NCBI GenBank assembly: GCA_937923625.1 | Contig: CALDTV010000017.1 | Span: 1 to 64,000, forward strand | Direction: 5' to 3' | DNA: 64,000 nt | Source: an uncultured Alphaproteobacteria bacterium | Lineage (GTDB): Bacteria; Pseudomonadota; Alphaproteobacteria; Micavibrionales; Micavibrionaceae | Part shown: one piece after another, positions 2,379 to 53,885 of the stretch | How the letters are laid out: each line of letters begins with the position of its first letter | How positions within the stretch are numbered: position 1 is the first letter of the stretch | Made by a program: the position numbers and the translations under genes | The notes under the pieces: generated by a model | Databases searched by the model: none | Told to the model about the DNA's origin: nothing | The model's input: only the letters and a program-made list of their open reading frames with translations

Positions 2379-3245
2379 TTATTTTTCAATTTCTTGTTTA
2401 ATGTAATTATTCTTTTCTTCTTCGCGCACAATCATTGTTCCTGTTCCTTCGGATGTATAAATCTCGCAGCGTAGGCTATCCTTTTTAAAGCCATTCAGAA
2501 TGTGAACACGTTTCACGCCAGAGCGCACAGCGTTGACACAATTTTCTAACTTAACGCGCATGCCGTCAGTGACGATTTTATCACTAATTAACTTATCAAT
2601 TTCGGAAGCGGTCAAGACAGATGCAACCGCACCATCAACCATGACGCCATCAATATCGGTCATGAGAATAAGCTTATTGGCTTTTGTATCTGCCGCTAAT
2701 TCAATCGCGACATTATCGGCATTGATATTAAGTGCTGTGCCTTCGGTGGTAAAAGCAAGGCAAGGGATAACCGCTAAATTCGTTGCCACAAAATGCTCCC
2801 GCACGGCTTTGGCATCAATATGCCCAAGCGTGCCGTCAAACCGAATAATATCTTGCTCTGGCGCGCGGCGTTTTGCTTGCGCCCAATGGGGTGGTAATGC
2901 GTTAAAAACATTTGAGGGGAGCTTTGCTTTCACAAGGCTTTCAGAAAGTTTAAAGCCAAGATCACCGGCCAAAACTTTTTTAATAATCTTGATATCGCTT
3001 TCCGAAGAAATACGGCGACCATCAATTTTTGTTGGTGTTAAGTTTGCCTCTTTTATGGCTTCATCAATTGCCTCGCCGCCGCCATAGATAAGTAAAACTT
3101 TAATACCGTCTTCGGTGAGCTCTTGTATCTGTGCAATTAAATTTTCTCTCGCGGCACTATCAGTAATAATTTTCCCGCTTGCTTTGATAATAAAAAGCTG
3201 GCCTTGGAAAAGGTTGCGATAGAATTTCTTTAACGAATTCATCAT
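2379..3245 (-). CDS. argB: Acetylglutamate kinase (divergent ArgB)
   Basis: Amino-acid-kinase-fold enzyme that phosphorylates N-acetylglutamate, the second step of arginine synthesis. Visible signatures are the N-terminal IKASGK, the glycine-rich YGGG, the substrate-region DGRRIS, NINAD, and the late LMTDIDGVM segment. Its 288 residues are normal for the family. The sequence is divergent from common bacterial ArgB, for example YGGGEAID where GGGPxI is usual. The start codon is read in the 4-bp ATGA overlap with the argC stop, so translation is probably coupled. Position between argC and argD supports the call. Confidence 0.88.
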   Translation of the reverse strand: MMNSLKKFYRNLFQGQLFIIKASGKIITDSAARENLIAQIQELTEDGIKVLLIYGGGEAIDEAIKEANLTPTKIDGRRISSESDIKIIKKVLAGDLGFKLSESLVKAKLPSNVFNALPPHWAQAKRRAPEQDIIRFDGTLGHIDAKAVREHFVATNLAVIPCLAFTTEGTALNINADNVAIELAADTKANKLILMTDIDGVMVDGAVASVLTASEIDKLISDKIVTDGMRVKLENCVNAVRSGVKRVHILNGFKKDSLRCEIYTSEGTGTMIVREEEKNNYIKQEIEK

Positions 3246-4234
3246 GGGTAAATTGCCGTGTTGAAATTTAGTCCTTCGGTTTCATCTATCCCAAACATGA
3301 TATTCATATTTTGAACAGCTGTTCCCGATGCGCCGCGCAGTAAGTTATCAAGCGCACCTTGGGCAATGATCTCACCGCCATGACCGCGCGTGTAGCTAAG
3401 ATCAATAAAATTAGTACTGACCACATGGGTCATTTCAACATTATCTTTGATCCGCACGAAAGGGTGATTATCAAAAACGGAGAGGTTTGGTTCTGCATCT
3501 GTTTTGATAAATCCATTGGCGAAAATACCGCGTAGAAAAGGGCCAACAGTGGGGGCGAAGTTAAGCTGTTCTTCTTTCAATCCACTGCTTGCCAAAATCT
3601 CTGGTGTGTGGCGGTGGTTGTTCACAAGATAACTCCGAATGTTGCCAGAACAAAAAGGATGATCGACAGGATCGCGTGCGGCGCGTCCACCGCCTGATGT
3701 TCCTGATATCGCAATCACATCCGCATGCGCCATTTTACCTTTGAAAGGAAGCAACAAGAGTTGAACGAGGAGGGCAAAGCACCCAGGGTTTGCTATGGCG
3801 TCGCTTTTGGCGATTTCATCACGATAGATTTCTGGCAAGCCATAAACAAAACGACCATTGAGCAAATCTTCATGCTGATGCGGAATGTTATAATAACGCT
3901 CATAAGTTTCTTTATCGCTTAGGCGGAAATCGGCAGAAAAATCGATGATCTTGGTTTTGCCTAAAAAATTAGGCACGACTTCTTGCGCGGCTTTATGGGG
4001 GAGGCATAAAAATACAACGTCGCTTTCTGCCGCAACCGTTTCGTGATCGGTATTTGTCACGGCTAAACCGTCCATGTGGGAGAGGCGCGGAAATAATTCC
4101 GATAGGGGCGTGCCATCATGTTGACGGGAGACAAGGTATTTTATCTCAACATGATCATGTTGCAGCAAGCAACGGAGTAATTCTGTCCCCGTATATCCTG
4201 TAACCCCTACAACTGATACTTTTATCTTACTCAT
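3242..4234 (-). CDS. argC: N-acetyl-gamma-glutamyl-phosphate reductase
   Basis: NADPH-dependent reductase making N-acetylglutamate semialdehyde. The nucleotide-binding start VVGVTGYTGTELLR and the catalytic cysteine motif NPGCFA (about residue 150) are present, followed by SGTSGGGR. At 330 residues it falls within the family range. It is the first structural gene of the arg operon. AAAGAGGTTACGGATT places a ribosome site before the ATG at 4234. Roughly 180 nt of untranslated leader containing a putative attenuator lies between it and the leader ORF at 4372-4416. The stop overlaps the argB start by 4 bp. Confidence 0.95.
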   Translation of the reverse strand: MSKIKVSVVGVTGYTGTELLRCLLQHDHVEIKYLVSRQHDGTPLSELFPRLSHMDGLAVTNTDHETVAAESDVVFLCLPHKAAQEVVPNFLGKTKIIDFSADFRLSDKETYERYYNIPHQHEDLLNGRFVYGLPEIYRDEIAKSDAIANPGCFALLVQLLLLPFKGKMAHADVIAISGTSGGGRAARDPVDHPFCSGNIRSYLVNNHRHTPEILASSGLKEEQLNFAPTVGPFLRGIFANGFIKTDAEPNLSVFDNHPFVRIKDNVEMTHVVSTNFIDLSYTRGHGGEIIAQGALDNLLRGASGTAVQNMNIMFGIDETEGLNFNTAIYP

Positions 4235-4371
4235 AATCCGTAACCTCTTTAATTTATTTAATAATACGGGGTTTCCCCGATATTGACCAGACGAATGAGA
4301 GAGATAATGTGATTGATTTTTAAAAAGATATTAGGTCAGCACAAATGCATCCCCCATGCGAGCTGGGTGAT
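4235..4371 (-). promoter_or_regulatory. Putative attenuator region of the arg leader RNA
   Basis: This stretch lies between the leader-peptide stop and argC. In the RNA sense it contains CACCC (from 4365-4369), a GCAT-GGGGG-ATGC element (4347-4359), a U-run CTTTTT near 4325-4330, and a hairpin CGGGG-AAA-CCCCG (4266-4278) just before the argC ribosome site. The GGGGG can pair with either CACCC upstream or ACCCCG downstream, so mutually exclusive folds are possible. I could not define one canonical terminator by eye, so the switching mechanism is open. A second mini-ORF (MHLC, 4336-4350) begins inside the G-rich element. Confidence 0.45.
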
Positions 4372-4416
4372 TTAATTGCGACGTCGGCGTCGGTTTTGTA
4401 CGTTGGCTATATTCAT
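4372..4416 (-). CDS. Putative arginine leader peptide (five Arg codons)
   Basis: The minus strand reads ATG AAT ATA GCC AAC GTA CAA AAC CGA CGC CGA CGT CGC AAT TAA in codons, giving MNIANVQNRRRRRN. Five consecutive Arg codons sit one codon before the stop, upstream of an arginine biosynthesis operon. This is the arrangement expected of an attenuation leader peptide, where a ribosome stalls when charged Arg-tRNA is short. The -10 of the candidate promoter ends 7 bp before the ATG, so the mRNA may begin at or beside the ATG (leaderless). No Shine-Dalgarno sequence is seen, which agrees. CGA, CGC and CGT are normally all read by one inosine-containing tRNA. The ORF is seen directly; the function is inferred. 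Confidence 0.7.
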   Translation of the reverse strand: MNIANVQNRRRRRN

Positions 4417-4423
4417 TACAGAT

Positions 4424-4452
4424 ATAAAAACCAAAAGGGGTGGTGCTGTCAA
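4424..4452 (-). promoter_or_regulatory. Candidate sigma-70 promoter of the arg operon
   Basis: TTGACA (complement of 4447-4452), a 17-bp spacer and TTTTAT (complement of 4424-4429) face argC. Predicted initiation is at about 4417, practically on the A of the leader-peptide ATG at 4416. The -35 is perfect and the -10 matches four of six bases. Confidence 0.55.
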
Positions 4453-4468
4453 TTATAAACTGGGTTGC

Positions 4469-5494
4469 TTAAAGATTTGTTTTACGCGGGTCAAACGCAT
4501 CACGCACAGCTTCACCGATGAAGGTCAATAACGATAGCATAATCGCCAGAGACAAAAAGGCGGTAATACCCAGCCATGGGGCTTGGATATTGTTTTTACC
4601 TTGCGCCAGTAACTCACCGAGGGAGGCTGACCCAGGCGGCAAGCCAAGCCCTAAAAAGTCGAGCGAAGTAAGGGCAGTGATGGAGCCCGTTAAAATAAAA
4701 GGCATCAATGTGAGTGTGGCGACCATGGCATTCGGCAAGACGTGCCGCCACATGATGGTGGTGTTTGATACGCCAAGCGCATTGGCGGCTTTCACATAGT
4801 CAAAATTACGCGTCCGCAGGAACTCCGCACGGACAACATCCACAAGGCTGACCCATGAAAACAGCAAAAGGATCATCAGCAATGTCCAAAATCCCGGTAC
4901 AAACATCGCAGAAAAAATGATGAGAATATAAAGCGAGGGTAAGGAAGCCCAGACTTCAATCACGCGCTGCATAATGAGGTCTAAACGCCCGCCATAATAT
5001 CCCTGAAACGCGCCTGCCGTAATACCAATGATCGAGCTGATGATAGTGAGCGCCAGCCCAAATAGAACCGATATACGAAAGCCATAAATCACACGTGCCG
5101 CAACATCACGCCCTTGGTCGTCGGTGCCTAGAATATTTTCTGTCGTCGGGGCGGATGGCGCGGGGGTTGGTAGGTCGTAATTGATGGTGTCATAGGAAAA
5201 ACGAATAGGTGGCCAAATCATCCAGCCTTTTTCGTTGATTAATTCTTTAACGAACGGATCGCGGTAATCGGCTTCGGTTTCAAAATCGCCGCCAAAAGTG
5301 GTTTCGGGATAGTTTTGAAAAATAGGCACATAGAAATTATTATCAAACTTCATTAATAACGGCTTATCATTCGAGATAAACTCCGCCCCCAAAACCAGCA
5401 TCAACAACGCCATAAAGATCCAAAAAGACCAATAACCACGCTTATTGGCTTTAAATTGTGCTAAACGGCGTTGTGTGATAGGTGAAAAAGTCAT
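4469..5494 (-). CDS. yejE: Peptide ABC transporter permease, YejE-like
   Basis: Inner-membrane permease of the dipeptide/microcin C (Yej) family. An N-terminal membrane segment (residues 20-42) is followed by the long periplasmic loop typical of YejE, then the BPD permease core with LGTDDQGRDVAARVIYGFRISV. The EAA-like cytoplasmic loop is around VKAANALGVSNTTIMWRHVLPNA. It pairs with the YejB-like permease encoded about 0.8 kb upstream, with two small genes between them. It is the last gene of the yej stretch; no ATPase gene (yejF) follows, because the arg leader lies next. No clear ribosome site is seen before the ATG. Confidence 0.9.
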   Translation of the reverse strand: MTFSPITQRRLAQFKANKRGYWSFWIFMALLMLVLGAEFISNDKPLLMKFDNNFYVPIFQNYPETTFGGDFETEADYRDPFVKELINEKGWMIWPPIRFSYDTINYDLPTPAPSAPTTENILGTDDQGRDVAARVIYGFRISVLFGLALTIISSIIGITAGAFQGYYGGRLDLIMQRVIEVWASLPSLYILIIFSAMFVPGFWTLLMILLLFSWVSLVDVVRAEFLRTRNFDYVKAANALGVSNTTIMWRHVLPNAMVATLTLMPFILTGSITALTSLDFLGLGLPPGSASLGELLAQGKNNIQAPWLGITAFLSLAIMLSLLTFIGEAVRDAFDPRKTNL

Positions 5495-53108: not shown

Positions 53109-53885
53109 ATGCTCATTCGCCGCCGTCGCCGCAAAATCCAAACGGGTAATGAATCTTCTGATACCGCGCAGATGATGAACTTGTCTTTGTTCATAATGCT
53201 TTTAGCCTTTTTTATTGTCTTAAACGCAATTTCATCTTATGAGGAGGTAAAAACTGTCGCCGTGCGTGAAAGTGTGGCGATGGCCTTTAATCGGGATGCA
53301 AATATAAAGGAGCGTTTATCTTCGGATGCGCCCGACGACAGCAAATCTGTGAATAAAGGGGATTCGTTTGATCGTTTAGAAGCTTTATTTGATGCCCAGA
53401 TTGCCTCGTTTGAAGTCACACGCAGCAACAGCATGGGTGTGATGATGGTGGAAGTGCCATTAGAGGAATTTACACGCGCTGTCATGGCCGTGGGGCAAAA
53501 AGATTTAACGCGTTACCCAACACGCCGTGCGATACGGGAAAATGCATTTTTGCCAACGCTTGTTTCTATTATGCGTAAGGAAATTTATGGTGCCACCACA
53601 AGAATGGAAATTTTATTTCAGTCAGAAAACAATCCTGCAAGAATGCAAAATCAAACGCCAAACCAAGTAAAGAAAATAATTGATATGGGCGGAGAGCTTG
53701 CGCAACATTTAGAAAAACGTGGCCTACCGCAAAAGCTTATCAATATAGGTATTCAAAAAGGTAATACAGATATTGTAACTTTAGTTTTTAGAAAATATGT
53801 GCCTTTTTCCCCTGTTAATGAAGAGGAAACATTAGAAGAAAACTCAGGCGCAAATAATATACAAAATAATAGTTCTCAAACATGA
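53109..53885 (+). CDS. MotB-like stator protein lacking the channel aspartate
   Basis: 258 residues. A basic N-terminus (RRRRRK) and one membrane helix (about 22-44: MMNLSLFIMLLAFFIVLNAIS) match MotB, where the D of 'DxMxLLLAxF' would lie; here that position reads S. The rest resembles no OmpA domain: the peptidoglycan-binding motif is missing. Its stop overlaps the next motB by 4 bp. It may be an auxiliary or degenerate stator subunit. Whether it ever conducts ions is doubtful. Confidence 0.7.
   Translation: MLIRRRRRKIQTGNESSDTAQMMNLSLFIMLLAFFIVLNAISSYEEVKTVAVRESVAMAFNRDANIKERLSSDAPDDSKSVNKGDSFDRLEALFDAQIASFEVTRSNSMGVMMVEVPLEEFTRAVMAVGQKDLTRYPTRRAIRENAFLPTLVSIMRKEIYGATTRMEILFQSENNPARMQNQTPNQVKKIIDMGGELAQHLEKRGLPQKLINIGIQKGNTDIVTLVFRKYVPFSPVNEEETLEENSGANNIQNNSSQT

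Follow-up and report, generated by a model that had tools for sequence, protein, structure and literature searches.

The model that we propose, and in which we place good confidence on the strength of sequence comparison and predicted folds, makes the short open reading frame (ORF) lying before argC the leader of a ribosome-mediated attenuator of the arginine biosynthesis operon, with the pairing of RNA segments 1 and 2 (hairpin A) as the putative terminator and the pairing of segments 2 and 3 (hairpin B) as the putative antiterminator. Transcription would start at or beside the leader AUG, and a ribosome would translate the short leader. When charged tRNA-Arg(ACG) is scarce, the ribosome would stall on the CGA, CGC or CGU codons just before the stop and would cover segment 1, leaving segment 2 free to pair with segment 3 and allowing transcription to continue into the operon. 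When arginine is plentiful, the ribosome would finish the leader and depart, segments 1 and 2 would pair, and hairpin A with the U-rich tract behind it would act as an intrinsic terminator in most relatives. The switch would be kinetic, hairpin A forming first, before segment 3 is made. The attenuation reading of the original prediction is supported by the conservation of the leader, its codon choice, its mutually exclusive hairpins and the failure to find ArgR; the start site, the stalling, the termination as output step and the response to arginine are what we infer from them.

The window, that is, the whole stretch of 64,000 nucleotides that was analysed, carries the following features.

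Positions 4447..4452, minus strand: -35 element TTGACA of the leader promoter, read in the sequence, its spacing kept in relatives.
Positions 4424..4429, minus strand: -10-like hexamer TTTTAT at 17 nt spacing, a spacing imposed by the script.
Positions 4372..4416, minus strand: leader ORF MNIANVQNRRRRRN plus stop, from the sequence and relatives.
Positions 4416-4414, minus strand: leader start ATG, from the sequence.
Positions 4378..4392, minus strand: control codons CGA CGC CGA CGT CGC, from the sequence and codon counts.
Positions 4365..4371, minus strand: segment 1, AUCACCC, predicted 5' arm of hairpin A (1:2), from folds and family statistics.
Positions 4349..4355, minus strand: segment 2, GGGGGAU, predicted 3' arm of hairpin A, which also contributes to the 5' arm of hairpin B, from folds and family statistics.
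Positions 4287..4366, minus strand: predicted hairpin B (2:3), which excludes hairpin A, from the fold and RNAalifold on six congeners.
Positions 4267..4279, minus strand: GC hairpin CGGGGAAACCCCG followed by UAUUAUU, terminator-like, from a scan.
Positions 3242..4234, minus strand: argC, first enzyme gene of the operon argC-argB-argD-argF-argG, an ORF reaching the cut-off of NCBIfam TIGR01850.

The ORF with a run of arginine codons before argC is confirmed, since its frame, its five Arg codons, its strand and its position can all be read directly. The leader (minus strand, 4416-4372) reads ATG AAT ATA GCC AAC GTA CAA AAC CGA CGC CGA CGT CGC AAT TAA, with a single Asn codon between the Arg run and the TAA (4374-4372, minus strand), and thereby presents the consecutive end-product codons near the stop that are expected of an attenuator. 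Its position is also that of an attenuator, upstream of argC, argB, argD, argF and argG and on the same strand, the distance from the leader ATG to the argC start (4234) being 182 nt. The argD and argF genes also reach the cut-offs of their NCBIfam models, argB falls just under its own (148.7 vs 151.3), and the N-terminus of argG is lost at the contig end.

The original prediction held that such a run was very unlikely to occur at random. In 40 first-order Markov sequences, ATG ORFs 6-40 codons long that contain five or more consecutive Arg codons occur at an expected 0.05 per 64 kb (both strands); two were observed in the window, so that the run by itself is suggestive and conservation is the real test and the deciding evidence. 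The second five-Arg short ORF (53194, minus strand) is without TTGAC at the leader spacing and looks like chance. A detector asking for TTGAC upstream of an ATG ORF of 8-30 codons with at least three Arg within the last seven codons gave the leader ORF as its sole match in the window and four matches in the control (1.146 Mb of strand sequence), two being genuine leaders of relatives; it recovers 32 of the 36 counted leaders and misses those of G005 and G010, both present in the control sequence. That the ORF is fortuitous, and its CGA/CGC repeats kept solely as RNA or DNA structure, was already disfavoured by the comparative data and appears to us very improbable. The existence of the ORF at 53194 would suit such a reading, as would the fact that four CGN codons in series often occur close to a stop (five genomes gave 132 matches), but among 20 stretches sampled from these matches an ATG was present in just four in-frame cases and the detector gave no leader-like ORF, and both the conservation of the leader and its Arg codon bias argue against it.

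Conservation was followed in a set of 104 genomes of one family, probably the Micavibrionaceae, including 'Micavibrio sp.' and unclassified alphaproteobacterial assemblies; the compared species are related, and the statistics are to be taken as guides, not probabilities. A match to argC was found in 52 of the 104, or 51 once G017 is dropped for its partial match (32% identity), and in 37 of these 51 genomes with a true argC a leader precedes either argC itself or its upstream neighbour. The leader stands immediately before argC in 11 genomes, with peptides such as MNTRNAQRRRRRLK, MDLDTTQLRRQRRK, MNNNTNRRRRR and MTKGNTYVPATQSRRRTR, and one gene further upstream in 24 more (e.g. MKNLVVTVTPRRRPR, MNTMNTPSLPRRRPR and MIKNVKKQPRRRSR), the next gene being a homologue of the gene that we call gene X in 23 of them and a different ORF of ~188 codons in G042 (L013). 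In G004, the leader MDKNCTYQSRRRIS precedes a GNAT-like ORF which itself precedes argC, and in G092 the leader, MKNLNxKxAxANRRRPL, contains undetermined bases. In the comparison of argC upstream regions that accompanied the original prediction as a check, 37 of the 51 retain the run of Arg codons immediately ahead of the stop, the distance to the -35 element and the location ahead of the arginine genes; the rest of the peptide and the nucleotide sequence differ, as expected of an attenuator whose terminal Arg codons matter. The longest Arg run, in 36 leaders, is of five codons in 4, four in 2, three in 24 and two in 6.

No clear leader was seen in 14 of the 51 argC genomes: none was found in 12 (G013, G015, G022, G034, G036, G044, G045, G046, G078, G084, G113 and G114), that of G048 is degenerate, and in G083 the region upstream of argC is cut by the contig end. 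The upstream stretches examined at 25 argC loci of other families in the class lacked a leader with its promoter; one match without promoter outside the family (L135) was rejected, as it sits inside a longer ORF of the same strand. A covariance model built from the leaders of six congeners and run on the 104 genomes with filters so strict that weak copies may have escaped, recovered the six leaders it was trained on at E 4e-25 or better and gave no second leader copies, all other matches having E >0.002, including the true G035 site at 0.27. The other 52 of the 104 family genomes, some of them incomplete, gave no argC match to the query, and arginine synthesis may have been lost often in the family.

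The promoter had been described as good and placed about 8 bp upstream of the leader, and one half of this description holds: the -35 element (4452-4447) is a perfect match, but TTTTAT (4429-4424) is seen only with the imposed spacing and is not listed by the sigma-70 promoter scan. This hexamer ends 7 nt before the leader ATG, and the start codon would therefore fall at the transcription start. Across the family, the distance from the start of TTGAC to the leader ATG is 35-40 nt in 33 of 36 cases, or in 27 of 30 after removal of the six leaders found via a filter that uses TTGAC. G038 is scored as a miss on its first ATG, a second in-frame ATG giving -36, and in some leaders (e.g. G001, G002, G035, G093 and G014) the start codon was picked by eye among in-frame ATGs, a choice which may favour the promoter spacing. 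With 17 nt imposed, the next hexamer is AT-rich in most leaders and ends 6-10 nt before the ATG in 10 of the first 11, G005 being without TTGAC. Because TTGAC keeps this distance from the ATG, transcription probably starts at or beside the A of the leader AUG and the mRNA is probably leaderless.

The choice of Arg codons is itself distinctive. The last eight codons of 36 leaders (G048 and, for its undetermined bases, G092 being excluded from the codon and fold counts) include 141 Arg codons, namely CGA 73, CGC 46, CGU 20 and AGA 2, with CGG and AGG absent, vs a CGA usage of 4/266 Arg codons in the argC genes of 22 leader-bearing genomes and of 3/150 in ten genes of the window. The enrichment of this otherwise rare codon fits a stalling role, and part of it could serve the hairpins; it also offers a handle on whether slow CGA decoding sets the sensitivity of the system. 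tRNA-Arg(ACG) decodes CGU, CGC and CGA through inosine. The own genome gave 33 tRNA hits, and the 30 whose loci were scanned include one tRNA-Arg each with the anticodons ACG, CCG and UCU, so that the idea of a single isoacceptor reading all five leader codons fits the one tRNA-Arg(ACG) gene found.

Bacterial arginine synthesis is usually described as being under the ArgR repressor, and attenuation by Arg codons is a control not usually expected for it. ArgR (PF01316) had no match in the own genome and none over the cut-off in the 104 family genomes, three of which gave weak matches, in a search whose control gave matches in 9 of 14 genomes. This absence fits the attenuator reading: a family without detected ArgR appears to read arginine through translation instead.

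The hairpins provide the second body of evidence. Segment 1 is the stop region of the leader, which in many relatives takes in the stop together with the final Arg codon, while segment 3 lies 57-75 nt beyond the leader stop in the tabulated cases, the 3' arm of hairpin B in the window being at ~4316-4287. The 1:2 and 2:3 pairings persist despite letter changes in 13 leaders, tabulated by eye and some nearly identical, with segments 1, 2 and 3 reading for example CGCTAATC, GATTAGGCG and CGCTTAATC; CGCTAAAC, GTTTAAGCG and CGCTTAAAT; or CGCGCTGAA, TTCAGAGCG and CGTTCTGAA. Over 34 leaders (G004 left out of the fold counts, G125 too short for the z-score set), and with the shuffling limited to the part after the leader stop, the mean z-scores are moderate, -1.73 for hairpin A and -1.96 for hairpin B, and the stretch common to the two measures 14.5 nt vs 10.3 in shuffles. 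Hairpin B is found unguided by RNAalifold in six congeners, with two-sided changes in 5 of 11 pairs; 4 of 500 shuffles reach its covariation score and 25 of 500 its number of two-sided pairs. Two mutually exclusive hairpins, as an attenuator demands, are thus predicted in related species. In cross-pairing, the own arms of hairpin B beat swapped ones (equalled by 0 of 20000 permutations across 11 genomes and by 25 of 20000 within the genus) and those of hairpin A within the genus do not (2368 of 20000), a comparison that is weak, the non-congener arms coming from their own folds, and that is not relied on. As a side observation, an element resembling GGCA-UUUUU-UGCC, noted by eye, recurs in many leaders within the stretch that separates hairpin A from segment 3 (e.g. 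GGGCATTTTTCGTGCC in G016).

At equilibrium and without ribosome, hairpin B is already predicted in four of the six congeners (G000, G001, G006 and G009), and any switch must therefore be kinetic. With a ribosome placed at the stop, hairpin B persists in several genomes, the masked equilibrium folds switching with ribosome position in some genomes only; a stalled ribosome would reach segment 1 in the window's genus only if it halted at the final Arg codons.

As for the output step, at least 5 T of 8 follow hairpin A in 23 of 34 leaders, vs 29% of the positions in the same regions, as illustrated by the T tracts of G128 (GCCCCTTTTTTG) and G020 (GCCTTTTTCTGC); G016 and G094, whose best hairpin swallowed the T run, are counted as misses, and G116, which has no hairpin, is left out of the denominator. 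This U-rich tract points to A as the terminator and to B as the antiterminator. In the window's own genome the tract behind hairpin A contains 3 T of 8, and a strict terminator scan from the leader stop to argC gave a site in just 2 of the 11 leaders adjoining argC, that of G005 being hairpin A. The GC hairpin at 4279-4267 was not found in the other ten leaders adjoining argC and is compatible with hairpin B in the folds. The intrinsic terminator thus looks clear in many relatives and weak in the window's own genome, where, because of the weak U-tract, termination by Rho or occlusion of the argC ribosome-binding site could alternatively provide the output.

An Arg-sensing leader with a Rho output, which would resemble the mgtL or speF leader, supposes that the completed leader exposes a C-rich, G-poor stretch part of which is hidden in hairpin B upon stalling. 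We regard this as unlikely, though worth serious attention: the scarcity of canonical terminators in the leaders adjoining argC (2/11), the composition of the 50 nt after the G000 leader (13 C, 2 G) and the action of Rho in the speF leader (PMC6386406, available excerpt) all speak for it, but the excess of C over G is unexceptional, 0.04 to 0.65 of the window stretches being as high in 11 genomes, and the U-rich tract after hairpin A (23/34) suits an intrinsic terminator. Still less probable, in our opinion, is an Arg-sensing leader with a translational output, in which hairpin A would free segment 3 to pair with the argC ribosome-binding site. The share of the G000 argC start region predicted to be unpaired does vary with the ribosome, from 0.86 on the last Arg codon to 0.45 on the first and 0.46 at the stop, and CACCUCUU can pair with AAGAGAGUG in G005; yet G000 without ribosome is 0.56 unpaired although hairpin B forms, no toggle is common to the 11 genomes, and the next gene is gene X, not argC, in 23 genomes.

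The remaining alternative separates the leader from the operon: a second promoter before argC or gene X would drive the genes, and the leader RNA would be a separate trans-acting small RNA/peptide gene, modelled on the reported rnTrpL and peTrpL of Sinorhizobium. We judge it improbable. A promoter-like site, TGGTCA-17-TATTAT (9/12), does lie at 4289-4261 between the leader and argC and could bypass the leader, but such sites turn up no more often than shuffling predicts (1 found vs 2.7 expected). A TTGCTT-N17-CATTTTA pair, noted by eye downstream of the leader and upstream of gene X in five relatives (G037, G109, G110, G116 and G117; loci L020, L250, L247, L260 and L249), resembles a further promoter from which transcription would skip the attenuator, and rnTrpL offers a precedent (PMC7298713, available excerpt). 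Against this, a variable peptide body with constant terminal Arg codons favours the codons over the peptide as the element that matters, and the leader keeps its place ahead of arginine genes. The leader RNA or peptide may have an additional role.

Returning to attenuation, the closest known system is trpL/rnTrpL of Sinorhizobium meliloti, also of the Alphaproteobacteria, which has a similarly short leader with consecutive control codons and mutually exclusive structures and whose RNA has its 5' end at the ATG of the leader (PMC7298713, available excerpt). That leader senses tryptophan, whereas the argC leader would sense arginine; a further possible difference is that the terminator-like hairpin of the argC leader spans or abuts the leader stop. 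Arginine is likewise sensed by consecutive Arg codons in a short upstream ORF in the Salmonella speF leader, where they are codons 12 and 13 of the 34 of orf34, but that leader controls ornithine decarboxylase through Rho, masking of the ribosome-binding site and RNase G (PMC6386406, available excerpt). In Staphylococcus aureus, the Arg-codon leader rbfL pauses when arginine is scarce, but this pausing lowers rbf translation by blocking the ribosome-binding site, the codons are AGA and AGG, and no biosynthesis operon is concerned (PMC13009471, available excerpt). Rfam gave no family at gathering score over 3500-5000, and its three sub-threshold, chance-level matches did not include speF.

The carA gene feeds arginine synthesis. 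In Pseudomonas aeruginosa it is preceded by a leader peptide (PMC4997734, available excerpt), and the likeness concerns the presence of such a peptide. The control codons of actinobacterial ilvB leaders overlap candidate terminator hairpins followed by poly-U (PMC1262725, available excerpt), and terminator and antiterminator overlap in Corynebacterium ilvBNC (PMC11857589, available excerpt), but the ilvB leaders concern branched-chain amino acids. In its available excerpt, PMC1262725 reports no conserved RNA structure before the arginine operons of Actinobacteria and names T-boxes for arginine genes in other species; the word arginine is absent from the accessible text of PMC2965389, a survey of premature terminators; and PMC12218461 (available excerpt) concerns a different attenuation under uORF control in S. 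meliloti, at genes other than those for arginine. Among the matches listed, the open-access literature showed no arginine-biosynthesis attenuator with Arg control codons, which is no proof of novelty as subscription papers lay mostly outside the search. Vitreschak et al. (2004) are said to have studied proteobacterial attenuators.

Taken more broadly, we consider moderately probable an ArgR-free arginine attenuator widespread in one Micavibrio-like family, combining a leaderless mRNA, CGA-enriched codons served by a single tRNA-Arg(ACG), and a terminator that the stalled ribosome would itself block, since the final Arg codon and the stop codon belong to its 5' arm. If so, arginine biosynthesis would join the amino acids under ribosome-mediated attenuation, through a compact design with the sensing codons inside the terminator, and the system would suggest how alphaproteobacteria without ArgR adjust their arginine pathway.

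Gene X, which separates the leader from argC in 23 family genomes, encodes a protein of ~350 aa with a P-loop (TTGTxMDSGKTT). Copies lie at L043:1447-2496 and L044:1441-2490, the 23 family homologues being 65-100% identical to the L043 copy, and homologues stand before argC outside the family in L024 (65% identity) and L124-L126 (37-38%). The match to Pfam DUF1611 is below the cut-off (E 0.006 and 0.024), and the fold prediction was unusable (mean pLDDT 34.7). Gene X may supply the acetylglutamate-forming step, a putative assignment. In G004, the GNAT-like ORF in its place (L002:2512-3171) matches PF00583 at E 0.0016, below the cut-off, and in G078 (L031:2495-3703) this place is held by a gene of the M20 peptidase family.
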